Assembly: GCA_963921795.1 (NCBI GenBank)
Contig: OY997651.1
Location: 42,140,856 to 42,204,855, forward strand
DNA length: 64,000 nt
From: Nannobrachium achirus
Taxonomy: Eukaryota; Chordata; Actinopteri; Myctophiformes; Myctophidae
Direction of reading: 5' to 3'
Below are positions 26,740 through 63,645 of this stretch, one piece after another (position 1 is the first letter of the stretch; every line of letters starts with the position of its first letter). The translations under genes were made by a program, and so were the position numbers. The notes under the pieces are model-generated. The model was not told the origin of the DNA, searched no databases, and worked only from the letters and a program-made list of their open reading frames with translations.

Positions 26740-27876
26740 CTAGGTCGTCCTCAGACGAGCCCTCCATCGTTGTTTCCAGTCATCTCGGTTCTCCATACAT
26801 CTGGCCAGCTCATTGGTGTTCTGTGTCCCTACGTCTTCCTTGAGTACGTCCACGTATGTTTTTGTGGGACGTCCTCGCGACCGGTGCCCATGTGTTGGCT
26901 CCCACAGTACCAATTTGCTGGCTGGAAGCTCCTGGTGTCTTTGGCAGTGTCCTGCTAGTCTCATTCTTCTGGTGGCAATTTTCTCGCTTACCTTTGGTAT
27001 TCCCTCATACAGGCTCCTGTTGGTAACATGTGCACTCCTGTTGATGTTGAGTACTGCACGCAACATTCTAGTGTAGCACCCGTCTAGAGACTTCTGCAGG
27101 GTTGGCTTCAGGGTCCAGCATTCACTGCCATAGAGGAGAACAGACTCCACCGTTGCAAAGAAGAAGCTAAGTTTGATTTGGCGGGGGAGGTTAGAGTTCC
27201 ATACACTGTTCATGCCGTTCAGGGCCCTCCACGCGAGTGCCTTCCTTACTTTAAGGTCTTTCTCAGTTGAGTCGACCCATGCGCCCAGGTACTTGAAGTC
27301 CTTGACTTCCTTCAACACAGCTCCTTCTGTTGTTGTCAGAGGTGAGTGATCAGGTAGGTTATAGGTGATAACCTCAGTTTTCTTAGCATTTAGCCTGAGA
27401 CCAACTTTGGCACACTCTATCTCCACCCTGTTCAGGAGTTCTTGTGCTTGTTCCATGCTGTCGGAGAGCAGGCTGATGTCGTCCGCATAGTCCAGGTCTG
27501 TCAGAACTACTGCGGGATGCCGCCTTGACCTCCTTGGTGTTAGCGTGAAGCCAAGCTCTTGTTCTCGTCCCCCTATGGCTTTCCTGAGCGCATAATCTAG
27601 AACTATGATGAAGAGGTAGGGGGCTAGGGTGTCTCCTTGCATTACACCAGCTCGGATGTCAAACACCTCACTGCTGCCATCCGGGGTCACCACTTTGGCC
27701 CTTGTTTTTGCGTACATGGTCTCGATAGCCCGGAGAATGTTGGGAGGGACATTGTAGGCCTCAAGGATCTTCACCATCTTGCTTCTGTGGATAGAATCAA
27801 AAGCTTTTTTGAAGTCAATGAAGCACAGTACAGCTGCTAGGTTGTCCTTTTTCACCTCCTCTATTAATCTAAATTA
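26740..27876 (-). mobile_element. 5'-truncated LINE encoding a reverse transcriptase C-terminal part
   Basis: An open frame of 371 codons without a stop covers reverse transcriptase motifs: LCFIDFKKAFDSIHR, AGVMQGDTLAPYLF (RT motif with QGD), DLDYADDISLL (catalytic YADD), GLRLNAKKTEV and FKYLGAWV, then a long C-terminal part with SECWTLK and RMLRAVLN. The YADDI box and overall order suit the RTE/RTE-X-like non-LTR group. No endonuclease domain remains; the frame opens at about 27876 inside the palm, with GTG as first in-track codon, so the copy is 5' truncated as LINEs usually are. An uninterrupted frame points to a fairly recent insertion. Clade assignment is tentative. Confidence 0.85.
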
Positions 27877-37815: not shown

Positions 37816-39594
37816 CTATTTCCTTTTCTTGGCATGGGCCTTCTTGCCTCCGACAGAGGAGTGACCTGCCCCTAAGGTGCTGTCTGAAGGGTTTGCAGAA
37901 ACGTTAATTTGTCCACCTTGAATTTCACTACGAACGTCTGAAGGCAGGCGTTCAATCTGCTGCTGAGTCTCCAGGGAGAACATCAAGTCTCTCAGTTGCT
38001 CTTGCAGCTCTGCTATCGTCCCATCCTTATGCTTTGCAGTCTCCCTTCCCTTGCGTTCCTCTTCTGCCAACTGGGCCTGGAGCTGCAACTGATTGGCTCT
38101 CAGACAGCGGTTCATCTCCTGCTCCTCCGTCAGCTCCCGGCTCAGCTTCGTCACACGACTGTTCACCTGGGCATATTTTTTGTCAATTCCCTGTCTCCCC
38201 TTGGTTAGCTCTGCCAGCCGTCGCTCCAAGCTATCACAACGCTCTAGCGTCTCCTTAAACTTAGCCTTCGTGTTGATTATCTCGTCGGCTATGTCTTTTT
38301 CCAGACGAAAAATCTTATTCTCCCAGTAAATCCTTTGGGACTCCAGTTGACTTGTCAGCAAGTAGGTATACTCTAAGTGCAGTGCTTCTATTTTCTCAGC
38401 ATGGCATATGTCTCCATCAAATTTACTTTCATACTGCACCATCTTTCCATCGGTCTTACTTGCCACAAGTCGATGGACGTAGTTATCTCCTGCATAGTCC
38501 CAGACACGTTGGTTGGTGAGGTGCATGGCATAAGTATGCTGTGTTTCCTCAAAGTGCTTGAGAGCATGCACACTGTCGTAACGGGAACAGCCGACGTGCC
38601 CACAGATCAAACAAATCCACACATTCTCCTGCACGCCACACTCAAAGCACTTGTTCTCCTCAACGGATTCCGGTGTTTGACGGTGCCTACATACAGGACA
38701 CGAGGCATCCTCCCAGCGCTGGAGACACTGGATGTGAAAGCTGTGGTTGCAGAGGGTGGTGAGAACGCCATTAACAGACTCATCCATTCCCTCTAGGCAG
38801 ACGATACACTTAGGCAGCTCGGTCAACTCCATCACTGGCAGACTTGCTCCCTGTTCCGACTTGATGGCTTCTGCCCTTTCCACATAAACTAGATGGCACA
38901 CTGCATCCTCTATCGCGTTGAACTGGCGGCCATTAGTTGCAGTGTAGAAACGGTCTGCATCTGCCTGTGTACTGAAGTTGAGTAGCACCATAAACTGGTT
39001 AGGGGTGGAATCACGTATAATCTTCATGTGTTCCATTACATCGTTATAAGGTGCCACAAGCTTCATAAGGTCATGGCTGGTCATGGTAGCTGGAACGGCC
39101 AGTAGGCACAGCATGGCACTACGTCTCACATCCTCAGTAAGTGACGTCATTTTATTGGTCTTGTAGAGGTGCATGATACCGTGGACAATTTCCACCGAGG
39201 GGTTTCCACTGAAGAAGGAGATCTGGTCCTGGTCTGATAGTTGCTTGAATGCTGAGTATCGAGACTTGATCCCCTCACAGCCCTCCTTACAATCAGTTTC
39301 AGGCTTCAGGCACTGACTTCCAGGGATGTTCTGAAGTGCGTCTTCAACCGTTCCTGGATTTAGTTCAAAAGTCTCAATGACCAGATCTCCCATGGCTCTA
39401 CTACCAATGTTTTTGTGAAGAACGGTTGATCGTTCCAGGTCTGTCTTCCCAGTCAAAGTGGCCTTGGCAAGGCCCAGAGCTTTCTCGTGCATCTCCTCTT
39501 CTGCCGTCCCCTCCCCTGCAGAATACTGGAAACCTTGTGGACAGAGCGATTGGTCTGCTAATTCCAGACGGATAACGACCAGAGGCACACTCAT
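37816..39594 (-). CDS. brap: Intronless BRAP (BRCA1-associated protein / IMP) retrogene, 592 aa
   Basis: A single frame gives a complete BRAP. Start MSVPLVVIRLELADQS matches mammalian MSVSLVVIRLELAE; I chose this Met (39592-39594) rather than the one 17 codons upstream because the product is then 592 aa, the length of human BRAP. Domains: BRAP2-type RRM-like region about 120-245 (SFFSGNPSVEIVHGIMHLYK), C3H2C3-type RING 263-302 (CIVCLEGMDESV ... CPVC), UBP zinc finger about 316-360 (CFECG, CGHVGC, HFEETQH), long coiled coil about 405-550, basic tail KKAHAKKRK. BRAP is a Ras-responsive ubiquitin ligase that limits KSR/MAPK signalling and holds NLS proteins in the cytoplasm. Vertebrate BRAP has about 12 exons, so an uninterrupted frame indicates a retrocopy. 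In the UBP finger, GCGRY is GCSRY and SRHAYKH is SVHALKH; zinc ligands remain. No poly(A) tract or target repeats were found, so it is not very young, yet the frame is intact. Confidence 0.92.
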   Translation of the reverse strand: MSVPLVVIRLELADQSLCPQGFQYSAGEGTAEEEMHEKALGLAKATLTGKTDLERSTVLHKNIGSRAMGDLVIETFELNPGTVEDALQNIPGSQCLKPETDCKEGCEGIKSRYSAFKQLSDQDQISFFSGNPSVEIVHGIMHLYKTNKMTSLTEDVRRSAMLCLLAVPATMTSHDLMKLVAPYNDVMEHMKIIRDSTPNQFMVLLNFSTQADADRFYTATNGRQFNAIEDAVCHLVYVERAEAIKSEQGASLPVMELTELPKCIVCLEGMDESVNGVLTTLCNHSFHIQCLQRWEDASCPVCRHRQTPESVEENKCFECGVQENVWICLICGHVGCSRYDSVHALKHFEETQHTYAMHLTNQRVWDYAGDNYVHRLVASKTDGKMVQYESKFDGDICHAEKIEALHLEYTYLLTSQLESQRIYWENKIFRLEKDIADEIINTKAKFKETLERCDSLERRLAELTKGRQGIDKKYAQVNSRVTKLSRELTEEQEMNRCLRANQLQLQAQLAEEERKGRETAKHKDGTIAELQEQLRDLMFSLETQQQIERLPSDVRSEIQGGQINVSANPSDSTLGAGHSSVGGKKAHAKKRK

Positions 39595-41818: not shown

Positions 41819-42516
41819 GTTGCGACCGTAGGTCGCACTTTACTATCAAAACCACCACAAAGTGTAAGTAACTCCGTCCCTCCGTCTGTCTGTCAGTCTG
41901 TCTGTCACACCTCACAAGTCACACTTTTTCCCTGCTTTAATCTCCGCAACCGTTGCCCCGATCCATGCCAAATTTTGCACACACGTTCCTTGGCTGCCAA
42001 ACTACAACCTCCAAGGACCCCCGGAGCTCCAGGGACCCCCAGATGTAAAAAATGACCAAATGCGCAAACATGACCAAATGACCACCCCAACGGGGCTGCT
42101 CACGGGGAATTCCCGGGGACCACCGACTCCTGGTGCTCCAGAACGGATGCAAAAGTGGTGGCGCCCCCAGTGGAGGACCCCCTACACTGCAGCTCACATA
42201 AAATGCCGTAACTCCGGCTAGGAGCGACCGGGACAGCCGGGGCCGGTACCTGTTCGTCCGCCTTGCCGGCGCGGAGACCCCACCCCTCATTTCTCACATG
42301 GCCCTCTTCTAGCGCCACCATGAGGCCGATTCTTGCAAAACACATTTTTGGACACTGCTCCTACAGATTTTGCCCTAAAATCACGAAAATCACTACACAG
42401 TATGTCTACACTCATGTCATCAACATGGATCAGGAAGATTTTGGCAAAACACATTTTTGCCCTATTTGTGGAGATAAGTGACCTACGGTCGCTTATCTCC
42501 CGATTAGGGAGCCTTA
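41819..42516. mobile_element. Insertion inside the transposase DDE domain
   Basis: Transposase homology stops after GGAGGAAGAGTTAG at 41818 and resumes at GATAAGCATCTAACTGAAAA. The inserted DNA has a 13-bp inverted pair GCGACCGTAGGTC (41822-41834) and GACCTACGGTCGC (42480-42492). Each lies in its own small palindrome (GCGACC-gta-GGTCGC on the left, GAGATAAG...CTTATCTC on the right). The body belongs to the family at 58.98, 60.21 and 63.77 kb: CCGTTGCCCCGATCCATGCC, TAGCGCCACCATGAGGCCGA, TACAGATTTTGCCCTAAAAT. Non-coding. Confidence 0.75.
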
Positions 42517-42949
42517 CTGGTGATAAGCATCTAACTGAAAACTGTGGCTTTTTGGACAAGATTCTTCCTGGTGATTTAGTTTTAGCTGACCGGGGCTTTA
42601 ATATTCATGCCACATTAGGTTGCATGATGGCACAGTTACAAATTCCAGCATTCACTCGGGGGAAGTCACAGTTAGCTCCTGTTGACTTGGAGACCACAAG
42701 GAAAATTGCTCAAGTTAGGATTCATGTTGAGCGTGTGATCGGTTCTGTGCGCCAGAAATATTGTATTTTGGGGGGGATATTGCCAATTGAATTCTTATCA
42801 TGCAAGGATAGTGATGGTTATTGTACCATAGACAAGATTGCGCTGGTCTGTTGTGCTCTGGTGAACCTTTGCCCAACAATTGTTGATTTTGACTAAATGG
42901 TTAATTTGTAAGGATGTCAATAAAGACAGACTATTTCTATAGCCTAAAG

Positions 42950-43587: not shown

Positions 43588-46173
43588 TTAATTTTTTGTA
43601 CTTTTCTTAGCCCTTTTTGGCAGAAACTGAGGTAGCTTACGGCAATTGGGACAATACCATTTCCCTCTTGGTGCAACCTGAACATTAACACATGCATAGT
43701 GAAACCACTGAATATGACATTTGTCATTGTCACAACATATCATTTTACCAAATTCAACCTGGCCACAGGAACAAAATGCTTGTTCTAGCCCGCTGGCACT
43801 TGCAGCAAGATCAGAACCATGTGACTCAGCAGAGACAGATACTCCAGGCTGTGAGGACTCAGTGAGTGTGTGTGTAGATGAAATCCTAGTGTAGAACTTT
43901 CCAACCAACTCTGGCATAATGGCTGTGTCAAAAATGTGCTTACTCTTCTGGCATATCATGCCCCAGAACTCTTCATCAAATGAAATGGTCTCTCAACGTG
44001 CAGATCCTTCTCTGTCCAAACAACAAAAAAAGCAGATTCCAGTCTACACACCCCAAGTTGAGTTTGCACCTGGTAGAAATACTGATGGTTTCTATTTAGT
44101 TTTAGTTTCCCATCATCATCATCCTTCTGCAAGTAGGTTACACTGTCTACCATTTCACCTTTGACACAGAAAGGACATTTAACTTCAATTACATTGACAC
44201 CACAACAATCACAAGAAACAAGGCCGTCTGGGGAAGCGCCCAAGAATGGCACACTTGGATTAATGAAGAAACCTGTGTTGTGCATTTTCACATTTTCATG
44301 AGATTTCTTATGTTCATCTATGAACATATCACGTGCAAATTTCTTATGAGTACATCCCCAGGTAGTGGCGCTTGAAGTAAATTTGTATGCCTCAGGATAG
44401 CATACACTTTTGATGAGGCTCTGTGCTGGTTGGTCCGGATTAGTGCAGCATGCAGTTTTCATTTTAGATGCTGTGATTCGACCAGCACGAAATCGAAACC
44501 ACAGTTTAGAATCAGCTTGATCCCTTGTAGCTGCCTCAACTGCCTTTGCTTGCTCCTCAGATACAGAAATCTCAACATCATTGCAAATAGACAATACATC
44601 ACTATAGTCCATGTGAACTGCATTATTGTTTCGTAATTCAGTCAACACCAGAGGAAAGTTTTCACCCATCGCTTTGGGAACAAAACTGTCTGAATGAGGT
44701 GCAATCAGTGACAAAATAGCAGATCCACTTGTGCTAAGAGCACTGAAAAATTTGGTTAATTCAGTAATGGTTGGCTGTGGTGTTTTTCTAACTTTTCTAA
44801 GAGTAGAGCGGTCACTAGCACTTTTTTTCTCATGACCAGCACAGCTGCTCTCTGCTATTTTACTTTATATCTCTTTGCTGCAGTGAAGTCTATCTTTTGG
44901 CATTCCTTTGTACTCCACCTTTGACAACTCAGTAGGTAACATCCAATAAGCCTTTTCCTGTGTCACTGTCTTTGAGTCCCTCAAGTTCACAGTTTCTTGG
45001 ATCAGAAACAGCAATGCAGCATGTGTGCACACTTCTCCAAGGCCAGCCACACACGTGCAGTGGCCTCCAAGAATCCGGCCTGACTTCTCTGCAATTATCC
45101 AGGGTTCAAGTGGTGTATTTCGGATTGACTGGGAATGGAGGACCTGAATAAAAGACAAGACAAACCAAATATAAGCTAAGAATAATCAATCATCAATTTA
45201 ATTTTAAAATAAATGACATCATGTAGGCTTATACCAATGGCTCTCAATATTTGAGGAGTTATAGGTCTGTAACTGTTAGTTAGTGTACTAATGGAACCAA
45301 ATTGACAGGTCTCTAAAGGCCCATTCCCAGTGAGCAAGATAAAAGATAAAGAAAACAAATATCTTTATCCATTGAAGTGGATGAGAGTAGGCTACCATCC
45401 ACTTCGATTGAGAAAAATATATTTTTTGTCTTTATCTTGCCAAGTGGGAAATGGGCCTTAACTTAACTCTGAAAACAAAGGAACCCTTACAGGTCTGTAA
45501 CTGTCATAGTGTACAGTACACCATTGGAACCAAATGAACCCTTACAGGTATGTAACTCTCAGTGTGTGCAATTTGAACTCTGAACCAAATGGACCCTTAC
45601 AGTTTGTAAGTCTGATAGTGTACACAAATGGAACCAAATGGACTCTTACAGATCCATTTGTACATTGTAAGTGTTAAAACATTTTAAAGTAATTGTAATC
45701 TGCAGTTAACAGTGTAGTTTGGGACTGTGGAGTGGACTAATGCATATCAAACTGATGATCAAAAATGTAATAAGACTATATACAATGTCTAAATGGCAAA
45801 GACAGGTTGATCTAAAAACGTTACCTACCTTAGCTTTCACGATGCATCTGTCATTGAGGAGCTACTGTATCTCTCTCACCCATCCACACACCATCTGGTT
45901 ATAAGCTTCCAAACCTTTGTAGGCGTTAAGGTCTTCAGATGTGTATGGGCTTGGCGAAAAAATAAGGTAGTTAACAATGTCTGGATATTTGATAGAAGGT
46001 AGAATATTTGGGTCATCATTGATCCAAGACGATGGGGCCAGCTCATATGGATCTTTGCCACATATTAAGCTTAATTTCTCTAAATAGCGTGCCCTTTCCT
46101 GCAGACCAAGTCCTTCTTTGTAGCTGGTAGCATCTTCCACACGATTTTCGGAGCTTTTCCGTGGGTTTGACAT
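43588..46173 (-). pseudogene. SWIM finger - YqaJ exonuclease - PHD protein of the ISL2EU element
   Basis: The minus strand carries four coding parts. About 46173-45862: MSNPRKSSENRVEDATSY ... WINDDPNILPSIKYPDI, the N terminus. About 45158-44865: SGRILGGHCTCVAGLGEVC then THAALLFLI, a SWIM zinc finger (CxC...CxH). 44714-43990: a YqaJ/lambda-exonuclease-like nuclease with WFRFRAGRITASK, FLGASPDGLVSCDC, NVIEVKCPF and QYFYQVQTQLG, which supply the Asp, the E-x-K and the Tyr-Gln of the active site. Then FCSCGQVEFGKMICCDNDKC with WFHYACVNV and WYCPNC, a PHD finger, to the stop at 43588. The frame changes by one base near 43985 between nuclease and PHD, and the join between 44870 and 44714 contains a stop, so this copy is probably not functional. 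The nuclease role in transposition is not established. Confidence 0.82.
45285..45665 (-). repeat. Array of 'GGTCCATTTGGTTC' units, mirror of 40335-40540
   Basis: On the plus strand the units read GGAACCAAATGGACCCTTAC and AGGTCTGTAACT, repeated four to five times with a central 'AAATATCTTTATC' inverted stretch near 45350-45445. It lies in the first intron of the minus-strand transposon gene, in inverse orientation to the array in the transposase intron. Confidence 0.7.
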
Positions 46174-46512
46174 AATGGCATTGTCTCAAAGTCGTAAATT
46201 AAACGTTATCACCGCATTCCAATGCTAGTATTATCCCACGTTGGTTTGTTTACAAAAGAGAGTATCGCCATGATGGCTGCGCCTCGCGGTAACGCCCATT
46301 TCGTGACGTCGGTGATTCCACTAATAGGCAACAGACTATTCTCACATATGGTGTGACATCACGACACGTTACATCACATGATGATGACATCACATAATAT
46401 CATCACAACTGTCCTATAAAGTTAACTTTCGAACGAACAAAATCTCATTTAGCAGCCTTCAGCAACACGTAGCAACTTCTTCCCAAAACTGGAGGAAGTG
46501 GCTACGTGTCTA

Positions 46513-46525
46513 GTTGCTAGGCAAC
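46513..46525. promoter_or_regulatory. RFX X-box-like palindrome upstream of the RPB1 retrogene
   Basis: GTTGCTAGGCAAC fits the RFX-family X-box pattern GTYRCC(N0-3)RGYAAC closely. It lies 65 bp upstream of a TATA box. RFX2 and relatives drive ciliary and testis genes. Binding is inferred from sequence only. Confidence 0.5.
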
Positions 46526-46560
46526 GGGGTGTGTTGATGTCACAACGGGGTGTGTTGATG
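46522..46560. repeat. Tandem pair upstream of the TATA box
   Basis: CAACGGGGTGTGTTGATG occurs at 46522-46539 and again at 46543-46560. The first copy overlaps the X-box end. Confidence 0.85.
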
Positions 46561-46589
46561 ACGATGTCAGCCCAGAGCTCAGTCCAGCC

Positions 46590-46597
46590 TATATAAG
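46590..46597 (+). promoter_or_regulatory. TATA box of the RPB1 retrogene
   Basis: TATATAAG in the context CAGCCTATATAAGGGGGTG. A start site near 46620 would give a 5' UTR of about 195 bp to the ATG at 46815. It lies about 300 bp from the right end of the ISL2EU element. Vertebrate RPB1 genes themselves have housekeeping-type promoters, so this looks newly acquired. Confidence 0.6.
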
Positions 46598-46814
46598 GGG
46601 GTGTGCTGTGTGCTGGGTGTCTTATCTCTTTAGATGTCGACTCGGAAAGATATAGCAAGGAGAGTCACTGTTGATACATATATTTATCAGAGATAAATAT
46701 AGATAATATATAAGATAGATAGAAAATAGATAAGAGAAAGACAAATAGAGATTTAAAAGTTCATTCTCACATAGCAGTGTGCCGAGGGAGGGCACGTATC
46801 ATTGAATAGACAGG

Positions 46815-49800
46815 ATGCATGGACCACCCTCTGGTGACAGTGCATGCTCACTGCGCCTCATCAAGAGAGTACAATTTGGCATCCTCAGCCCAGATGAGAT
46901 CAGACGCATGTCTGTCACGGAAGGTGGACTTGAACACCCCGTAATCACAGAAGGAGGCCGTCCGAAACTCGGCGGCCTCATGGACCCAAGGCAAGGGGTC
47001 ATGGAACGATCTGGAAGGTGTAAAACATGTGCCGGTAACATGACAGAATGTCCAGGCCATTTTGGACACATAGAGCTGGCAAAACCTGTCTTCCACGTCG
47101 GCTTCATGGCACATATTAAGACGGTTCTCCGTTGCGTTTGCTACTATTGCTCCAAGCTATTGGTGGATTCGAATAATCCAAAGATCAAAGACATCCTTTC
47201 CAAATCTAAAGGGCAACCCAGAAGGCGATTGGCACACGTGTACGAGTTGTGCAAAGGCAAAAAAAGCTGTGAAGGAGGAGAGCAGACGGATTTTGATATG
47301 GAATCTGGGGCCAAGCAGGGGGAGACAGAGGATGACAAACGCAGGGAGAAAGGCCATGGTGGCTGTGGGTGCTTCCAGCCCCGTATTCGGCGCTCTGGCC
47401 TTGAGCTATACGCTGAGTGGCAGGAAGTCAACGAGGACTCTCAAGAGAAGAAGATCCTGTTGAGCCCTGAGCGTGTGCTTGAGATCTTCAAGCGCATCTC
47501 AGATGAGGATGACATCATTCTGGCTATGGACCCTAAGTTCTCCCGGCCGGAGTGGATGATAGTCACTGTTTTACCTGTGTCTCCACTGGCCGTCAGGCCT
47601 GCTGTAGTCATGCAGGGCTCCGCCCGTAACCAGGATGACTTGACCCACAAACTGGCCGACATAATCAGGATTAACAACCAGTTAAGACGAAACGAGCAGA
47701 ATGGTGCCCCGGCTCATGTCATCGCTGATGACTTCAAGCTCCTTCAGTTCCATGTAGCCACAATGGTGGACAATGAGCTTCCAGGCATGCCCAGGGCAAT
47801 GCAAAAGTCGGGCCGCCCACTCAAATCCATCAAACAGCGTCTAAAGGGTAAGGAGGGGCGAATCCGTGGCAACCTGATGGGGAAACGTGTGGACTTCTCT
47901 GCCCGAACTGTCATCACCCCTGACCCCAACCTATCACTTGACGAAGTGGGTGTTCCACAATCCATCGCAGCTAACATGACCTTCCCAGAAATTGTCACAC
48001 CATTTAACTTTCTCAGGTTACAAGAGCTGGTCCGAAGAGGGCACAGCAACTACCCTGGAGCCAAATATATTATCCGTGACAATGGGGACAGAATTGACCT
48101 GCGATTCCACCCCAACCCAAGTGACATAAATCTGCAGTTTGGCTACAAGGTGGAGAGACACATGTGCGACGGTGACATTGTCATCTTCAACAGACAGCCC
48201 ACGTTACATAAAATGTCCATGATGGGGCACAGGGTTCGAATACTTCCCTGGTCCACCTTCCGACTTAACCTCAGCGTGACCACACCGTACAACGCCGACT
48301 TTGACGGTGACGAGATGAACCTCCACCTGCCACAGTCCCTCGAGGCCAAGGCAGAGATACATGAGCTGGCCATGGTGCCGCGCATGATCGTCACGCCCCA
48401 GTCGAACCGGCCCGTCATGGGAATCGTGCAGGACACACTCACGGCCGTGCACAAGTTCACCAAGAGGGACGTCTTCTTGGAGAGAGGCGAGATGATGAAC
48501 CTTCTCATGTACCTCTCCACGTGGGACAGGAGGATGCCCCAGCCGGCCATCCTCAAGCCCCGCCCCCTATGGACGGGCAAGCAAATATTCAGCCTCATCA
48601 TTCCCGGACACATAAATATCATCCGAACGCACAGCACCCACCCCGACGAGGAGGACAGAGGGCCTGACAAGCACATCTCTCCAGGGGACACCAAGGTCAT
48701 AGTGGAGAATGGCGAGCTGATCATGGGCATCATGTGTAAGAAGTCTCTTGGAACATCAGCTGGCTCTCTGGTCCACATCTCCTACTTGGAGATGGGCCAC
48801 GACATCACCAGGCTCTTCCTCTCCAACATACAGACTGTGGTCAACAACTGGCTGCTCATTGAGGGTCTCTCCATCGGTATTGATGACATTATTGCTCATG
48901 ATAACACTTACCTTGACATCCAGAATACCATCAAGAAAGCCAAGCAGGACGTGATAGAAGTCCTCAAAAAAGCCCATAACAACCAGTTGGAGCCGATCCC
49001 AGGATGCACGCTGAGGCAGACCTTTGAGAACCACGTCAACCGTATCCTCAATGATGCCCGTGACAAGACAGGATCCTCTGCTCAGAAGTCCCTGTCTGAA
49101 TACAACAACTTTAAGACCATGGTGGTGGCTGGGTCCAAGGGATCCAAGATCAACATATCACAGGTTATTGCAATGGTGGGGCAGCAGAATGTTGAGGGTA
49201 AGCGCATCCCTTTTGGCTTCAAGCACCGCACGTTGCCCCACTTTGTTAAGGATGACTATGGTCCCGAGAGCAGAGGCTTTGTAGAGAACTCATACATGGT
49301 CGGCCTGTCACCCACTGAGTTCTTTTTCCATGCCATGGCCGGCAGAGAAGGTCTGATCGACACAGCGATCAAGACCGCTGAGACTGGTTACATCCAACGT
49401 CGTCTGATCAAATCTATGGAGTCAGTGATGGTGAAGTATGACGCCACGGTACGTAACTCTGTAAACCAGGTGGTCCAACTGCGCTACGGAGAGGACGGTC
49501 TGGCTGGAGAGGCTGTGGAGTTCCAAAACATGGCCACACTTAAACCCTCAAATGCGGTCTTTGAGAAGAGGTTCAAGTTTTCCTATACCAATGAAAAGTC
49601 GCTGAGGCACTTCCTGCAGGAGGATGTGGTGAAGGATGTGACAACAAACGCTCATGTACAGGCCGCCTTAGATAACGAATTTGAGAAGATGAAGGAGGAT
49701 AGAGAGACCCTCAGGGCTATCTTCCCCACTGGGGACAGTAACGTGGCACTGCCTTGCAATCTTGCCAGAATGATCTGGAATTCTCAGAAGACCTTCAAAA

Positions 49801-51956
49801 TCAACACTCGCACCCCCACAGATCTCCATCCTCTTCAAGTGGTCGACGATGTCGAGGAACTGAGTAAGAGGCTGGTGATTGTGCATGGTGACAACCCTCT
49901 GAGTCAGCAGGCGCAGCAAAATGCCACGCTGCTCTTCAACATCCACCTGCGCTCCACCCTTTGCTCCAGACGTATGACGGAAGAGTTCCGTCTTTCCACA
50001 GAGGCCTTCAAATGGCTGTTAGGAGAAATTGAGACCAAGTTTAACCAGTCCATCGCCCACCCAGGTGAGATGGTGGGGGCCCTGGCTGCCCAATCACTGG
50101 GAGAGCCTGCCACCCAGATGACCCTCAACACATTCCACTACGCCGGTGTATCGGCCAAGAACGTCACGCTGGGTGTGCCGCGTCTGAAAGAGCTGATCAA
50201 CATATCCAAGAGCCCCAAGACACCCTCACTGACAGTTTTCCTTTTGGGCCAGGCTGCAAAGGATGCAGAGAGGGCCAAGGACATCCTGTTTAGACTGGAG
50301 CACACCACTCTACGCAAGGTAACAGCCAACACTGCCATCTATTACGATCCGGACCCCCAGGCCACAGTGGTGACGGAGGACCAGGAGTGGGTGAGCATGT
50401 TCTATGACATCGAGGGCTTAGACGTTACGCGCATCTCTCCTTGGCTTCTCCGTATTGAGCTGGACCGCAAGCACATGAATGACCGTAAGCTCACCATGGA
50501 GCAGATCACTGAAAAGATCAACGAGGCTTTCAAAGATGACCTAAACTGTATCTTCAACGACGACAATGCAGAGAAGCTGGTTCTGCAAATCCGTATAGTA
50601 AACAGCGACGATAACAAGTTTCAGGAGGGCGAGGCGGAGAAGATGTCTGATGATGTTTTACTGAGGGTCATCGAAAACAACCTGGCTGAGTTAACACTAC
50701 AGGGCATTGAGCATATCAGCAAGGTGTACATGCACTTGCCCCAGACGGATAACAAGAAAAAGATCATCATTACGGACGAGGGTGAGTTCAAAGCCCAGCA
50801 GGAGTGGATACTTGAAACGGATGGAGGGGGACTCATGAAGGTCCTCAGTGAGAAGGACGTGGACCCTGTCAGGACCACCTCCAATGACATTGTGGAGATC
50901 TTCCAGGTGCTGGGTATCGAGGCTGCACGCAAGGCTCTGGAACGTGAGTTGAACCACGTTATCTCATTCGACGGTTCCTACGTCAACTACCGCCACCTGG
51001 CCCTGCTCTGTGACACCATGACATGCAGAGGACATCTGATGCCTATAACACGTCACGGCATCAACCGGCAGGACACGGGACCCCTCATGAAGTGCTCGTT
51101 CGAGGAGATGGTGGACGTGCTGATGGAAGCAGCATACCACGGAGAGAATGACCCGATGAAGGGTGTGTCCGAGAACATCATGCTTGGTCAGCTGGCTGCA
51201 GCCGGGACTGGCTGCTTCGACCTGCTGCTGGATGCTGAGAAGTGTAAGTATGGCATGGAGATCCCCACAAACATCCCTGGTGTGGCCAAAACCACTGGAA
51301 TGTTCCTCGGCTCGACGCCCAGCCCCATGACGAATCTGTGGCGCACGGGAGTGAGCCCAGCGTACGGCGCGTGGTCTCCCAGTGTCGGAGTAACCCCGGA
51401 GGCAGCAGGCTTTTCACCCGGCGCAGGATCGGATGTGAGTGTCTTTTCTCCGGGCTACTCGCCGGCGTGGTCGCCTACTGCTGGATCTCCCGAGGAGTCA
51501 TCTGGCCCAATCAGCCCGTACAACCCCTCCCCAGGTGAAGTCCCGACCTCCCACTCTTACTCCCCCACGAGCCCCAACTACTCACCCTCCTCGCCATCCT
51601 ATTCGCCCACTTACTGCCCTACCTCCAACTCCCCCACTAGGCTCAATGTCAGCCCTAGCTACTCACCCTCCTCGCCATCCTATTCGCCCACTTACTGCCC
51701 TACCTCCAACTCCCCCACTAGGCTCAATGTCAGCCCTAGCTACTCCCCCTCTGGTCCAGAGCACACCTCCCAGTCACCCACCTATAGTCCAAGCTCACCC
51801 TCCTACTCTCCTACTTCCTACAACCCCATCCTGCCCTCCTACAGCCCGGAGTCACCCAGGTACTACCCCTCCTCCCCCAATTATTCCCCCACTTCCCCAA
51901 CATACTCACCTACTAGTCCTGAAGGCTCTGACGACAGTGACGAGGAAAACAACTGA
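46815..51956 (+). CDS. polr2a-like: Intronless RNA polymerase II largest subunit (RPB1) with shortened CTD, 1713 aa
   Basis: One uninterrupted frame encodes all of RPB1. Start [20 protein letters not shown] matches vertebrate [13 protein letters not shown]; an in-frame TGA at 46803 fixes the start. Body: clamp zinc site C69/C72/C79/H82 ([17 protein letters not shown]), second zinc site with CVCYYC and CEGG...GHGGCG, active-site loop NADFDGDE with D495, D497 and D499, bridge helix ([19 protein letters not shown]), trigger loop ([19 protein letters not shown]), conserved region to [14 protein letters not shown]. The catalytic body (about residues 1-1581) is complete. The CTD spans only residues about 1582-1703: roughly 13 recognisable heptads, many altered ([21 protein letters not shown]), against 52 in vertebrate Pol II; total length 1713 against 1970 in human. 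The acidic end DDSDEENN is kept. Vertebrate POLR2A has about 29 exons, so this is a retrocopy. An open frame over 5.1 kb with conservative changes suggests selection or a fairly recent origin. Confidence 0.96.
51578..51739 (+). repeat. Exact 81-bp tandem duplication inside the RPB1 CTD
   Basis: Units 51578-51658 and 51659-51739 are identical base for base. Each codes 27 residues covering [14 protein letters not shown] and the non-heptad insert [13 protein letters not shown]. Identity implies a very recent duplication in the CTD. Confidence 0.95.
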
Positions 51957-54205
51957 GCTGCTATGAAGACGGGTGGCAGCAGCTGAGGAGGCTTCCTAAT
52001 GCCTTCCAGCACCATCTAAGAGATGATAAAATTGAAGGATGACACCTCTAGCCAGTGCTAAGCCAGAGGGGCTCTAATTCTCCATTTGTTTTTATTTCAG
52101 GGAATCACTTTTAGGCCTGACCATCGTTGGGAGGGGATTCACAAAAGTAAAGTAAGCAAATATTTACAACCATTTTCTCAGGGTCATGAGTTGACAATGT
52201 TATGGATGAAGCTCAGCCAGGTGTTGGCTTCTCCTCAGTCGCCATCTGTGGCTCTTGCCACAATTGGTGGATCTCTTCGGACTTGGTTGTAGCAAATGCA
52301 TCTTTCAGTTGTCGTAGCTTGTAATCCATTTGCCACAGTCGTCATTGGTAGGTTTGTCCTATTGGGGAGTTCATCGTTCCAACCTCTGGCTCTCCTGGGC
52401 GTATTTAAGTCTGTTCGGGTGTTCACCATCCTGCCCAAGTTGTTGTCTGTCCAGGCTGCCAACTGTCACCAGTCTGTTTTTGGTTGTCACCCATTCCTGG
52501 GTATACATCATGTGTGATGTCATATAACCATATATAGACAAGAGAGACCGAGGGGGGAGACATCTTGGTGGTTGCCCACTGGCTGGGCTCTACTAGGATA
52601 GGAAACATAAGAAGTAGCACCTTCTGGACACAATGTTTGGCTTTGTCCTACAGTACTTCAGATCATGAAGAGTCCAGACAGATATTCATCTACTTGAGTT
52701 ATATGCATTCCAAATGGAAAACCGCTTTATCCTTGAAAATACGGTTGCCTCAGAGCTAGAGAGGGACAAAGAGCGGGGGATATAAAGGCAGTGTGATGTT
52801 ACGTCATACAGCGTAAGATGACGTGGCACTGTAGGAGGACATCTATCTGTAAGAGGGTCAGTCTGTCTGTCAGCCTTGTCGGTCTGCATGTCTTTGTGAA
52901 TCTAATGTGTGTCTTGCTGGGCTGATCTTTCCATATGTATTGTGCACATGGCCAGTATAGGCAGACTTAGTGCTTGTCTACATTTCTTTAACAGTTGTTT
53001 TATATTTGTTGAATGGTATAGTTTTAAGATTCACATGGGAACCTTTTATCAGAATGCTCTCTGGCGGGGAGTTGCGCTCCTAGGTTTATTGTCACCTTGG
53101 TAAATTCATAGTTGCTGCTATTTATTGGGGTGTTGTGCTGCTGTGGAGGAGTGGACTCAAGTCACTGACAGAAAACCAGGATGAATAGAAATCAACATGG
53201 AATGTAAGGGGAAATGTTTGTACTGAATTCCCCTGCAGATGTCTTTGGCCTCTCTCTACCCACAATGCTCTTGTCAGAACACTCACGTTTATCCAATATC
53301 ACCCCATTGGTCTCCTCAACACAGTGAAGAGACAAAGCATAAACAACGTCCTAAATCATCCACCAGTATTCCCTTTGAGACGTGTACAACAAAAGCACAA
53401 ATAAACAAATATAAAACTAAACATAATGAGAGTTCTGTGTTTTCCCTTTCCTTTCCTTTTCTAGGAGGCCCGGGTCATATAGGAGGTGAGTGAGAGATTA
53501 TAGTTTGACACTTTTTTTTTTCTTCTTTTTTTTCTCAAAGTTTAGTAGCATTTAAATAAAGTAATCAAGTAATTCTCTGCTCACTTCATTTAGACTTGTC
53601 TATTTTCTTTAGGACTAAGTATAATTATTTTTAAGCACAATTAATTATTCTGTGTGAATAAGAATAAAGTAAATAAAAATCAAACCTCGGTTCGAAGTGA
53701 AGCGGTGAATTTTTATTCTATGTGTTCTAGAGCTATGAAATCTGTGTTCTAGATCTATCCACAAGTTTCCGCGGGAGTTTACTGGAGACTATCGGGACCA
53801 AACTTCCGGGTTTAACAGCAGACATACAAGCCCACGTCGCGTTGCAGATGCAACCCGTTGTGAGCTTGTAAATCGGCGCCGTAAGCTCGGTACAGACGTC
53901 TGCGCAATGCACTATGGGGCGTTGGGAACTCGTGGATACATTCTGTGTTCTAGATCTATACCTTCTATGTGCTTTAGTTCTATATTTTTATGAATTCTGA
54001 CTGAATGAATGATTTTGTCTGGAGGGCCAAATTGTCATGTGAAGCTTGACCAATCCTCAATTCTGCATGCACGGGACATGTATGGGACAGACAAAGCCAC
54101 TCCTTGAGAATCTATGGGAATCCTCAAAAAAAAAAAAACATGTACGGGACAGACAAAGCCACTCCTTGGAAGCGGCTTTCACCGCTTCAAATATATACTT
54201 AATTT
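51957..54205 (+). other. Region 3' of the RPB1 retrogene
   Basis: Probable 3' UTR and downstream DNA. The first AATAAA I find on the plus strand is at 53400-53405 (GCACAAATAAACAAATATAA), about 1.45 kb after the stop. No poly(A) tract typical of a fresh retrocopy is visible. About 53510-53545 is T-rich. 53817-53873 is a palindrome copy. No further gene seen. Confidence 0.45.
53817..53873. repeat. Dispersed palindrome copy
   Basis: Arms CAGACATACAAGCCCACGTC and GTTGTGAGCTTGTAAATC around GTTGCAGATGCAAC; moderately decayed. Confidence 0.6.
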
Positions 54206-54210
54206 ATTTT

Positions 54211-56212
54211 ACTAGAAGCTCGGCCGCCCGCCCTGGCCAACTCGGGAACAATGTAAATAGGGGATGAATGCCCCGCCCTTTAATGCAAACCCCATTATAC
54301 CTGTTGTCATAGGATCTGTTTTGACCATCTGTTTGCGTGTGTCCATTTATGCCTATATATGGGGATATCTGTCTGTCTACGTCCATTTTATGTCCATATA
54401 TGGAGATCTCTGTAGGACCCATTTTGACCATCTGTTTGCCTGTGTCCATTTATGCCCATATATGGAGTTATCTGTCTCGGCCGAGCGTCTAGTCGGCACC
54501 CTGGCCAACTCGGGAACAATGTAAATAGGGGATGAATGCCCCGCCCTTTAATGCAAACCCCATTATACCTGTTGTCATAGGATCTGTTTTGACCATCTGT
54601 TTTGACCATCTGTTTGCGTGTGTCCATTTATGCCCATATATGGGGATATCTGTCTGTCTACGTCCATTTTATGTCCATATATGGAGATCTCTGTAGGACC
54701 CGTTTTGACCATCTGTTTGCCTGTGTCCATTTATGCCCATATATGGAGTTATCTGTCTCGGCCGAGCGTCTAGTCGGCGCCCTGGCCAACTCGGGAACAA
54801 TGTAAATAGGGGATGAATGCCCCGCCCTTTAATGCAAACCCCATTATACCTGTTGTCATAGGATCTGTTTTGACCATCTGTTTGCGTGTGTCCATTTATG
54901 CCCATATATGGGGATATCTGTCTGTTTACGTCCATTTTATGTCCATATATGGAGATCTCTGTAGGACCCGTTTGACCATCTGTTTGCCTTTTTTTTCTCA
55001 AAGTTTAGTATATGGAGATATCTATATCTGTCTTTTTGCGTCCATTTTATGCCCATATATGGACATCTTTGACCATCTGTTTGCCTGTGTCCATTTATGC
55101 TCATAAATGGAGATATCCGTATCTGTCTGTCTGCATCCATTTTATGCCCATAAATGGAGATCTATGCAGACACAGTGCCGGTTCCTGAAAACCCTGATGT
55201 CAGACATCAGAATCCGAACCTTTCGTGCTGGTTCCAGAAAATCGTGTATCCGATCGGGTCAGGGCCGGGCACGCGTCGGGTCGGCCTCGACCCGACCCGA
55301 CGCGCGTTTTTCCCCAACCGGCGCAAAACGTTCGGAATCTCCTTATGCGGAGCTGATTGTTGACATCAGGCTGTTCCGGAGGAAATCGGCGCAAGCGCTG
55401 ACTCATTGTGACATCACTTCATAAAAGGCTCTGACATCACGTACACCACATGAGTCAATGGGCATAAATGGACACAGGCAAACGATGGTCAAAACGGGTC
55501 CTATGACAACAGGTATAATGGGGTTTGCATTAAAGGGGGAACCGGCACTGTGTCTGCAGCACAGTCGGAGGCACAGACAGATACAGAGATCTCCATAATG
55601 GGCAAAAAGGAACAGACAGACAAACAGATACAGAGATCTCCATATGGGCATAAAATGGATGCAGACAGACAGATACAGATATCTCCATATATGTGCGTAA
55701 ATGTACACAGGTAAACAGATGGTCAATACGGGTCCTACAGAGATCTCCATATACAGGCATAAAATGGACGCAGACAGACAGATAACTCCATATATGGGCT
55801 GTGGACATCAGGCTGTTCCGGAGGAAATCGGCGCAAGCACTGACTCAATGTGACATCACTTCATAAAAGGCTCTGACATCACGTACACCACATGAGTCAA
55901 TGGGCATAAATGGACACAGGCAAACAAATGATCAAAACGGGTCCTATGACAACAGGTATAATGGGGTTTGCATTAAAGGGGGAACCGGCACTGTGTCTGC
56001 AACACAGTCGGAGGCACAGACAGATACAGAGATCTCCATAATGGGCATAAATGGACACAGACAAACAGATACAGAGATCTCCATATGGGCAAAAAATGGA
56101 TGCAGACAGACAGATACAGATATCTCCATATATGAGCATAAATGGACACAGGCAAACAGATGGTCAATACGGGTCCTACAGAGATCTCCATATATGGGCA
56201 TAAAATGGACGC

Positions 56213-56279
<67 letters not shown>

Positions 56280-56923
56280 TAACTCCATATATGGGCATAA
56301 ATGAACAAGGGCAAACAGATGGTCAAAACGGGTCCTACAGAGATCTCCATATATGTTCATAAAATGGACGTAGACAGACAGATATCTCCATATATGGGCA
56401 TAAATGGACACACGCAAACAGATGGTCAAAACGGGTCCTATGACAACAGGTATAATGGGGTTTGCATTAAAGGGCGGGGCATTCATTCCCTATTTACATT
56501 GTTCCCGAGTTGGCCAGGGCGCCGACTAGACGCTCGGCCGCCCATCTCCATATATGGAAATGGACGTGGACAGACAGATATCTCCATATATGGGCATAAA
56601 TGGACACACGCAAACAGATGGTCAAAACAGATCCTATGACAACAGGTATAATGGGGTTTGCATTAAAGGGCTGGGCATTCATTCCCTATTTACACAAGAC
56701 GCTCGGCCGTCCATCTCCATATATGGGCATAAAATGGACGTAGACAGACAGATATCTCCATATATGGGCATAAATGGACACACGCAAACAGATTGTCAAA
56801 ACAGATCCTATGACAACAGGTATAATGGGGTTTGCATTAAAGGGCGGGGCATTCATTCCCTATTTACATTGTTCCCGAGTTGGCCAGGGCGCCGACTAGA
56901 CGCTCGGCGGCCGAGCTTCTAGT
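54211..56923. mobile_element. 2.7-kb foldback element built of minisatellite units
   Basis: The outer ends are ACTAGAAGCTCGGCCGCC and its exact inverse. The left arm (54211-55160) has three direct units of about 283 bp, each starting with the leader GGCCAACTCGGGAACAATG. Each unit contains pairs of 'CCATATATGGAGAT' boxes spaced by CTGTCTGTCTACGTCC. A GC-rich core (55180-55440) holds CGCGTCGGGTCGGCC and TCGACCCGACCCGACGCGCG. The right arm (55440-56923) repeats the same modules inverted, with a (CAGA)n tract at 56212-56278. The core module with GAGGAAATCGGCGCAAGC occurs twice (55378 and 55820). No transposase. Family not recognised. Confidence 0.85.
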
Positions 56924-63117: not shown

Positions 63118-63645
63118 ACATCCTGCACATGGTTGTGTGTAAAGAGGAGGTTTCTCCTGAACATGAGAGGAGCTCCAGTCTGCTCCAGGAGGAACCAGAG
63201 CCTCCACACATTAAGAAGGAACAGGAGGAACCAGAGCCTCCACACATTAAGGAGGAACAGGAGGAACCAGAGCCTCCAGACATTAAGGAGGAACAGGAGG
63301 AACCAGAGCCTCCAGACATTAAGGAGGAACAGGAGGAACCAGAGCCTCCACACATAAAAGAGGAACAGGAGGAACCAGAGCCTCCACACATTAAAGAGGA
63401 GGTTTCTCATGATCAGGAGGGGAGCTCCAGTCTGCTCCAGGAGGAACCAGAGCCTCCACACATTAAGGAGGAACAGGAGGCGCTACCTCAAAGACCAGAG
63501 GAGCCTGATGGTTCAACGTCGACATTACCAGCAGTGAAATGTGAACATGATGATAAAGACATCGCTTCGCCTGGAGTTGAAGTCGAGCTAGAATCTGACA
63601 CTGAAGTCACTGAAGACAGTGACGATTGGGAGGACACCAGTGGAG
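63118..63645 (+). CDS. Zinc-finger-type gene, acidic repeat exon
   Basis: The exon follows TTTTTCTGCTCCTAG and ends GGAG before GTCAGT. It reads ILHMVVCKEEVSPEHERSSS, then seven units of the type EEPEPPHIKEEQ (six in a row, one after SHDQEGSSSLLQ), then PAVKCEHDDKDIASPGVEVE and TEVTEDSDDWEDTSGG. Such Glu/Pro-rich, IKEE-bearing exons are typical of the front part of fish C2H2 zinc-finger genes. The open frame continues past the donor to a stop at 63701, but that part is intronic. Eight IKxE/VKxE SUMO consensus sites are present (seven in the repeats plus VKCE). No zinc fingers are within the window. Confidence 0.7.
63189..63404 (+). repeat. 36-bp coding minisatellite, six units
   Basis: Six 36-bp units each coding 12 residues (EEPEPPHIKxEQ or EEPEPPDIKEEQ). 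Very similar DNA between units suggests unequal exchange is active. Confidence 0.95.

Follow-up and report, generated by a model that had tools for sequence, protein, structure and literature searches.

This locus raises the question of whether a long uninterrupted frame for the largest subunit of RNA polymerase II (Pol II), RPB1, in Nannobrachium achirus is a copy of polr2a, whether selection has kept it, and what a polymerase subunit with so short a C-terminal domain (CTD) might be used for. The window analyzed is a stretch of 64,000 nucleotides of contig OY997651.1, and its features are collected in the table. The frame has no internal stop or frameshift across its 1713 codons, and a Pfam search matched all of the Rpb1 domains 1–7 with scores far over the cut-offs. 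The top matches in a PDB search were full-length RPB1 chains, presumably mammalian, which scored above the RPC1 and RPA1 chains. The complete intronless RPB1 frame described in the first-pass annotation is thus borne out.

Table. Features of the RPB1 copy and its flanks, in positions of the window; the names of the three stretches of the catalytic core are those we take them to have.
Feature	Coordinates	Strand	Description
TATA-like box TATATAA	46590..46596	+	225 bp upstream of ATG; consensus match only
5'UTR homologous to parent polr2a 5'UTR	46764..46814	+	52 bases, 86.5% identity
RPB1 retrogene	46815..51956	+	single ATG-start frame, 1713 codons plus stop, no introns
NADFDGDE, catalytic metal motif	48291..48314	+	codons 493-500; 8/8 residues as parent
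Bridge-helix stretch	49323..49412	+	codons 837-866; 28/30 residues as parent
Trigger-loop stretch	50112..50204	+	codons 1100-1130; 31/31 residues as parent
Collapsed CTD	51456..51953	+	166 aa, 12 heptad-like units, acidic tail at end
Tandem duplication inside CTD	51570..51751	+	81 bp, 97% alike
3'UTR homologous to parent 3'UTR	53138..53377	+	66% over 244 columns
Distal 3'UTR homologous to parent	53567..53673	+	74% over 111 columns

An intron-containing polr2a lies on the same chromosome, 11.4 Mb from the RPB1 copy, which is therefore not the only polr2a of the genome. The match to this parent falls into 29 blocks, compared with the single frame of the copy, and GT...AG is present at 25 of the 28 block junctions when the blocks are simply joined. 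One of the GT...AG junctions fitted badly and the joined translation is out of frame from there, so dN/dS was calculated from codons inside the blocks and not from a spliced parent. The copy matches the parent in both UTRs and is therefore a retrocopy of polr2a, as the first-pass annotation had proposed, a conclusion that we regard as virtually certain. The homology begins at 46764, where the first exon match starts, and AATAAA occurs in the distal 3'UTR at 53663 and 53672. No clear poly(A) tract was seen at the 3' end of the parent homology when the flanks were read by eye; the poly(A) tail and target-site duplication are often lost at such an age. The region around the TATATAA box has no match to the fetched parent polr2a locus, and the box is a candidate acquired promoter. 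Further TATA-like strings are found upstream of the copy at 46415 and 46707.

Comparison of the RPB1 copy with its parent gave an NG86 dN/dS of 0.136 (bootstrap 0.109–0.168, 1451 codons), and not a value near 1, which the first-pass annotation had named as telling against its reading. With an intact frame and a dN/dS clearly below 0.5 the copy is a retrogene, and we are highly confident that it is under purifying selection. Values are similarly low for the intronless copies of RPB2 (0.102; 1160 of 1174 codons), RPC1 (0.170; 1106 of 1426 codons), and RPC2 (0.209; 782 of 1133 codons). Under neutrality about 38, 26, 27, and 17 nonsense mutations would be expected in RPB1, RPB2, RPC1, and RPC2, respectively, and none was observed. 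The dS intervals of the RPB1 and RPC2 copies do not overlap when the four copies are compared, so the copies need not stem from one event. The amino-acid changes that were polarized (n = 87) comprise 77 on the RPB1 copy and 10 on the parent; the faster evolution of the copy also fits partial relaxation.

The changes are unevenly placed, being strongest in the jaw, foot, and CTD, with the active centre conserved. By domain, omega is 0.047–0.055 around the bridge helix, the trigger loop, and the last part of the cleft, and about 0.2 in the jaw and foot. The retention of NADFDGDE, bridge helix, and trigger loop noted at first pass holds up in the residue-by-residue comparison with the parent, and the copy is very probably catalytically competent. 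In the CTD, a unit was counted where a heptad starts with Tyr and agrees with the consensus YSPTSPS at four or more of its seven positions. The copy has 12 such units, close to the earlier estimate of about 13, so the heptad array persists in a strongly reduced form. Six of the units match at six or more positions, none is perfect, and Lys7 is absent; of the 52 units of the parent, 41 match at six or more positions and 22 are perfect, and Lys7 occurs eight times. Four of the 12 units of the copy sit within the tandem duplication.

The RPB1 copy is not a lone oddity. Intronless frames are also present in the genome for RPB2, RPB3, RPB5, RPB7, RPB11, RPC1, RPC2, and RPC8, with RPB7 only 28 kb from the RPB1 copy, so that several subunits of one complex, Pol II, have been copied (RPB1, 2, 3, 5, 7, and 11, the six Pol II subunits that the search covered). 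An introned RPB7 was not located in the genome, and none of the intronless frames seen there encodes a large subunit of Pol I. Pol III also needs subunits AC40 and AC19, and a PF01193 search gave no match to an intronless frame for either. We also considered whether the parents are decaying. As judged by reading, the stops in the matching blocks of the four large parent genes fall in introns or at block edges, and decay of these parents is therefore not shown; this reading covered the fetched stretches, and the ends of polr3a and polr3b fell outside them. No common promoter element was obvious by eye in the 900 bp upstream of the four large-subunit copies. The string CCATATATGG, which we take to be a perfect CArG-type string, is frequent near some copies but is part of a dispersed repeat and was rejected as a shared promoter element.

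The most likely interpretation is that the RPB1 copy is a functional retrogene within an unusually large set, perhaps expressed in the germline. Reverse transcription of a processed polr2a mRNA would have placed the copy some 11 Mb away from the parent gene, and for its expression we infer a promoter gained at the new site. Selection would then have preserved the function of this RPB1 and its conserved catalytic centre, while the CTD shrank from 52 to about 12 heptads. The product would most likely build an alternative Pol II, for which the intronless RPB2, RPB3, RPB5, RPB7, and RPB11 can provide other subunits; assembly with these partner copies is a possibility that we rate slightly below even. 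Such a polymerase would operate in some restricted context in which a short tail is enough, most likely the germline and testis first, although we consider germline use evenly balanced. Taken as a whole, this explanation, from constrained retrogene to alternative Pol II in a restricted setting, is one that we favor by a little. A bolder and rather unlikely extension is that retrogenes supply a complete second Pol II and a second Pol III, the former with a tail of about a dozen degenerate heptads and making mRNAs that need no splicing, and that selection maintains this alternative polymerase for a dedicated cell type.

The RPB1 copy could instead be a dosage or backup gene that is broadly expressed and whose product combines freely with the standard Pol II subunits; there would then be neither a dedicated alternative polymerase nor a special tissue. 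Purifying selection and the conserved active centre would be expected of such a gene, and copying in this genome extends well beyond polymerases. Long single intronless frames are found in the CCT, proteasome, class I tRNA-synthetase, and DNA_pol_B families, the last with two frames of 1113 and 1139 aa, which rules out polymerase-specific copying as the whole story and removes the need for a polymerase-specific explanation. BRAP, within the window, has a long intronless frame as well. None of 11 MCM loci, taken as a control, is intronless; a reading of this result as pointing to a non-replicating cell is weakened by the two DNA_pol_B frames. Because intronless frames are frequent elsewhere, the polymerase set may reflect high general retroposition and retention, and not selection for a second polymerase. 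A backup role is nonetheless unlikely, since the loss of all but 12 CTD units, with neither a perfect heptad nor Lys7, and the excess of polarized changes on the copy side suggest a changed job.

It is also conceivable, but quite improbable, that the copy worked through most of its history and only recently ceased to be expressed or used, with no stop acquired so far. The degenerate CTD with its young tandem duplication and the faster evolution of the copy relative to its parent are in keeping with such silencing, against which stand the open frame throughout its length and the three other large polymerase copies that are likewise open. The first-pass annotation had offered either a second Pol II form or a dominant interferer. 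A short, degenerate CTD could weaken the coupling of transcription to RNA processing, and a selected interferer would compete for the other subunits and damp transcription, for instance in germ cells as they mature. Long purifying selection and the conserved active centre suggest a useful product, so the interferer loses support; constraint is tightest around the catalytic centre, and the partner catalytic subunit RPB2 is likewise copied and constrained, making interference very improbable. Many retrocopies are neutral, but a neutral processed pseudogene intact by chance can be dismissed because of the number of nonsense mutations expected (a stop-free frame has a probability of 2.4e-17 with the branch length applied and 4.9e-9 with half that length) and the upper bound of its dN/dS, as can an assembly artefact, given that the copy lies within a 65-Mb contig in an assembly that resolved the far more repetitive parental CTD.

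Compared with vertebrate POLR2A, the copy shares the seven Rpb1 Pfam domains, the active-site motif, the trigger loop, and the acidic C-terminal end, and differs in its lack of introns, its 12 instead of 52 heptad-like units, and its changed jaw and foot. TAF1L, which arose by retroposition and encodes a TFIID subunit active in human spermatogenesis, is likewise a retrocopied gene of the core Pol II machinery and reportedly serves male germ cells. TAF1L is, however, not a polymerase subunit, and its parent is X-linked, whereas the RPB1 copy and its parent are on one chromosome. In Drosophila, PMC1839131 describes testis-specific proteasome retrogenes that likewise represent several subunits of one core complex retained as functional genes, with late-spermatogenesis expression reported for three; the present set differs in that its complexes include Pol II and Pol III. 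For zebrafish, 440 of 652 retrocopies are reported intact in the main texts of PMC3091775 and PMC3136929, and the retrogenes of zebrafish and non-mammalian chordates described there resemble the RPB1 copy in being intronless and intact with Ka/Ks well below 0.5. In contrast to these, the copy encodes a 1713-codon catalytic subunit whose partner subunits were copied too, and the words "polymerase" and "chaperonin" are absent from the same main texts, supplements aside. No RPB1 retrogene was named in the titles and abstract openings searched, or found by direct phrase, in a search that left most subscription journals and supplements outside; in the available text of PMC5509963, which contains both "POLR2A" and "retrocopy", POLR2A refers to ChIP peaks.

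The role of the long vertebrate CTD is otherwise approached via engineered truncations, and a naturally occurring vertebrate RPB1 that combines a conserved catalytic core with about 12 degenerate heptads would let that role be tested without engineering. Because a single genome carries intronless copies of several subunits of both Pol II and Pol III, one can ask whether a vertebrate uses a cell-type-specific polymerase, for which the proteasome retrogenes of the fly testis appear to offer a parallel. More broadly, the many long intronless housekeeping frames invite the question of why genes for core machinery have been retained in intron-free form in this lineage.

The first-pass annotation had described a complete intronless RPB1 paralogue, and this frame (the RPB1 copy) does run from an ATG through 1713 codons to a stop, matches seven Rpb1 Pfam domains and has full-length RPB1 chains as its closest solved relatives in a PDB search. 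The catalytic elements said to be kept are present: the stretches that we take to be the NADFDGDE motif and the trigger loop match the parental protein exactly, and the presumed bridge helix differs from it at 2 of 30 residues. The parent, an intron-containing polr2a, was located elsewhere on the same chromosome. DNA alignment of the two genes gives 29 blocks, with GT...AG at 25 of the 28 parental block junctions (one of the 25 a poor fit), and the parental protein blocks cover 1710 of the 1713 residues of the copy. We read the stops within those blocks as intronic or as falling at block edges, and none occurs among the codons of parent and copy aligned for dN/dS. The parent differs from a solved RPB1 chain, presumably mammalian, at 40 of 884 aligned sites. 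This closeness, together with its C-terminal tail of 52 heptads, marks it as a vertebrate gene, presumably from a teleost. Homology to the parent begins 51 bases 5' of the ATG of the copy and then extends patchily as far as window position 53673, with two of the 3'UTR patches at 66% and 74% identity; their JC distances (0.45 and 0.32) are close to the coding dS of 0.47. The intronless frame, the separate introned parent and the homology on both sides of the coding region bear out the proposed retrocopy origin. Upstream, window 45801-46764 showed no match to the 38 kb around the parent in a sequence comparison, and a TATA-like box lies at window 46590.

Comparison of the RPB1 copy with its parent gave dN 0.064, dS 0.468 and dN/dS 0.136 (NG86, 1451 of 1713 codons; codons 1486 onward, including the C-terminal heptad-repeat tail (CTD), were excluded, as were any not fully matched), a ratio well under 1 and in keeping with a functional copy. 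For a dead copy set against a constrained parent, dN/dS is expected to near ~0.5. With half of the dS placed on its branch, a neutral frame would have gathered 38 nonsense mutations, or 19 if that branch length is halved again, and none is observed. Polarisation of the changes over 884 sites, with the solved RPB1 chain as outgroup, assigned 77 to the copy and 10 to the parent, leaving 7 unassigned; combined with an even split of dS this corresponds to dN/dS of ~0.24 on the copy and ~0.03 on the parent, and the RPB1 copy is therefore constrained, though less so than its parent. Regional dN/dS is lowest around the bridge helix (0.047), in the trigger loop (0.055) and in the last part of the cleft (0.055), takes middle values of 0.11-0.16 in the regions of the clamp, active site, pore, funnel and linker, and is highest in the jaw (0.22) and foot (0.19).

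The CTD had been called collapsed, with about 13 heptad-like units, and it proved to be 166 amino acids long with 12 Tyr-start units carrying at least four of the seven consensus letters. None of these is a perfect heptad and none has Lys7, compared with 52 heptads in the parent (22 perfect, 8 with Lys7). The tail also contains a tandem duplication of an 81-bp unit. According to the excerpted text of one study, transcription differs only slightly in human cell lines engineered to carry a 25-repeat CTD, in which residual endogenous RPB1 is possible (PMC11126984), but the 12 degenerate units of the copy form a far shorter tail.

Intronless frames were also found for partner polymerase subunits (see table), and introned counterparts were located for RPB2, RPC1, RPC2, RPB3, RPB11, RPC8 and RPB5 (for RPB5, one exon); an introned RPB7 gene was not located in the genome. 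The introned POLR2C appears to be tandemly duplicated. A second intronless RPB11 match contains an internal TGA. No intronless Pol I large subunit was seen in two genome searches able to show one, nor was an intronless AC40 or AC19, the intronless PF01193 matches being only the RPB3 and RPB11 copies. The dN/dS values were 0.102 for the RPB2 copy (1160 of 1174 codons), 0.170 for the RPC1 copy (1106 of 1426) and 0.209 for the RPC2 copy (782 of 1133), two stop-reading codons having been dropped from each of the latter two calculations. The dS intervals of the four copies are similar (RPB1, 0.403-0.536; RPB2, 0.326-0.445; RPC1, 0.349-0.474; RPC2, 0.244-0.352), yet those of RPB1 and RPC2 do not overlap.

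The RPB7 copy, identical to the solved chain 28jc_G at 160 of 172 residues, follows the RPB1 copy on its downstream side at a distance of 28 kb; by our own arithmetic the chance of a random site falling this close to a given point is ~3e-5 in 1.66 Gb, the proximity having been noticed post hoc. The window holds a second intact intronless frame, for BRAP (BRCA1-associated protein), and this shared location hints that the region may gather retrocopies. Upstream of the RPB1 copy, on the opposite strand, lies a YqaJ/alkaline-exonuclease domain frame with a DDE transposase fragment nearby, which together look to us like a YqaJ-carrying DNA transposon, and a LINE-like RVT_1 reverse-transcriptase fragment was also seen. 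A dispersed repeat rich in CCATATATGG occurs in the window and elsewhere; the window contains 21 occurrences of CCATATATGG, the 10-kb stretches holding the RPB2, RPC2 and RPC1 copies have 2, 4 and 5, respectively, and 15 fetched genome stretches (L024-L038) have 5 in total. A 263-aa frame containing 36-bp repeats has no Pfam match.

Locations of the features discussed (C, chromosome of the assembly; where class is by Pfam family and length, it is presumed)
Feature	Location	Strand	Details
Window	C14:42140856-42204855		
RPB1 copy	window 46815-51956	+	
Parent polr2a	C14:30794990-30810551	-	introned
RPB7 copy	C14:42220907-42221425	-	172 aa, complete; class confirmed by PDB search
RPB2 copy	C10		1174 aa from GTG, 1168 from ATG; class confirmed by PDB search
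RPC1 copy	C8		1426 aa from TTG, 1388 from ATG; class confirmed by PDB search
RPC2 copy	C22		1133 aa; class confirmed by PDB search
RPB3 copy	C8		270 aa; class by Pfam family, length
RPB11 copy	C5		118 aa from ATG; class by Pfam family, length
RPB5 copies (2)	C2; C20		212 aa; 228 aa; putative, by Pfam family, length
RPC8 copy	C16		235 aa, 131 codons read; class by Pfam family, length
POLR2C, introned	C11:12946250-12958843	+	
BRAP copy	window 37816-39594	-	592 aa from ATG
YqaJ frame	window 43959-44864	-	
DDE fragment	window 42324-42893	+	
RVT_1 fragment	window 26740-27855	-	
Dispersed repeat	window 54390-56800		
36-bp unit	window 63186-63400		six units, 96% alike
CCT frame, example	C14:10166586-10168070	-	
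Proteasome frame, example	C13:31140665-31141231	-	
DNA_pol_B multi-copy row, example	C1:85351612-85352202	+	
tRNA-synthetase frame, example	C21:12380737-12382602	-	

Long single frames were found in other housekeeping families, with counts that rest on the matches listed and are thus lower bounds. In the CCT family, 7 of the 67 matches listed span no fewer than 487 of 490 positions in a single frame and score above 500 bits; a further two long frames with weaker matches may, we presume, be BBS-type genes. Among the 73 proteasome matches listed, 20 span no fewer than 181 of 189 positions in a single frame, although some proteasome genes may be intron-poor in any case. Four of these frames (C1, C9, C11 and C12) are nearly equal in score and may reflect secondary spread. 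Whole-domain single frames account for 2 of the 34 DNA_pol_B matches listed (1113 and 1139 aa); at least 16 further rows, with multi-copy frames of 1653-1700 aa on many chromosomes, are probably mobile or virus-like elements. Class I tRNA synthetases have single frames of 900-1278 aa at at least nine loci, with an apparent tandem pair on C13. For MCM, the 40 matches listed fall at 11 loci and include no long single frame, all being exon-sized pieces with a longest open frame of 191 aa. With the CCT, proteasome, DNA_pol_B and tRNA-synthetase frames, this genome carries a large number of housekeeping frames that are long and intronless, and the RPB1 copy belongs among them.

The titles and abstract openings returned by our literature searches name no RPB1 retrogene, and a direct phrase search gave no match. 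In the excerpted sources, intact retrogenes are well known in fish (PMC3091775), and a 2026 survey describes retrocopies as fewer outside mammals and mostly species-specific, and counts ray-finned fishes among the groups in which the proportion under selection is greatest (PMC13320880). The locus is best read as a retrogene that may have been retained to provide a catalytic, short-tailed RPB1, which could act together with the copied partner subunits and would be used in a restricted setting. Precedent suggests that this setting could be the germline, because, in the excerpts of the two papers concerned, fly proteasome retrogenes are expressed in late spermatogenesis (PMC1839131) and a testis bias of retrogenes is reported elsewhere (PMC3136929).
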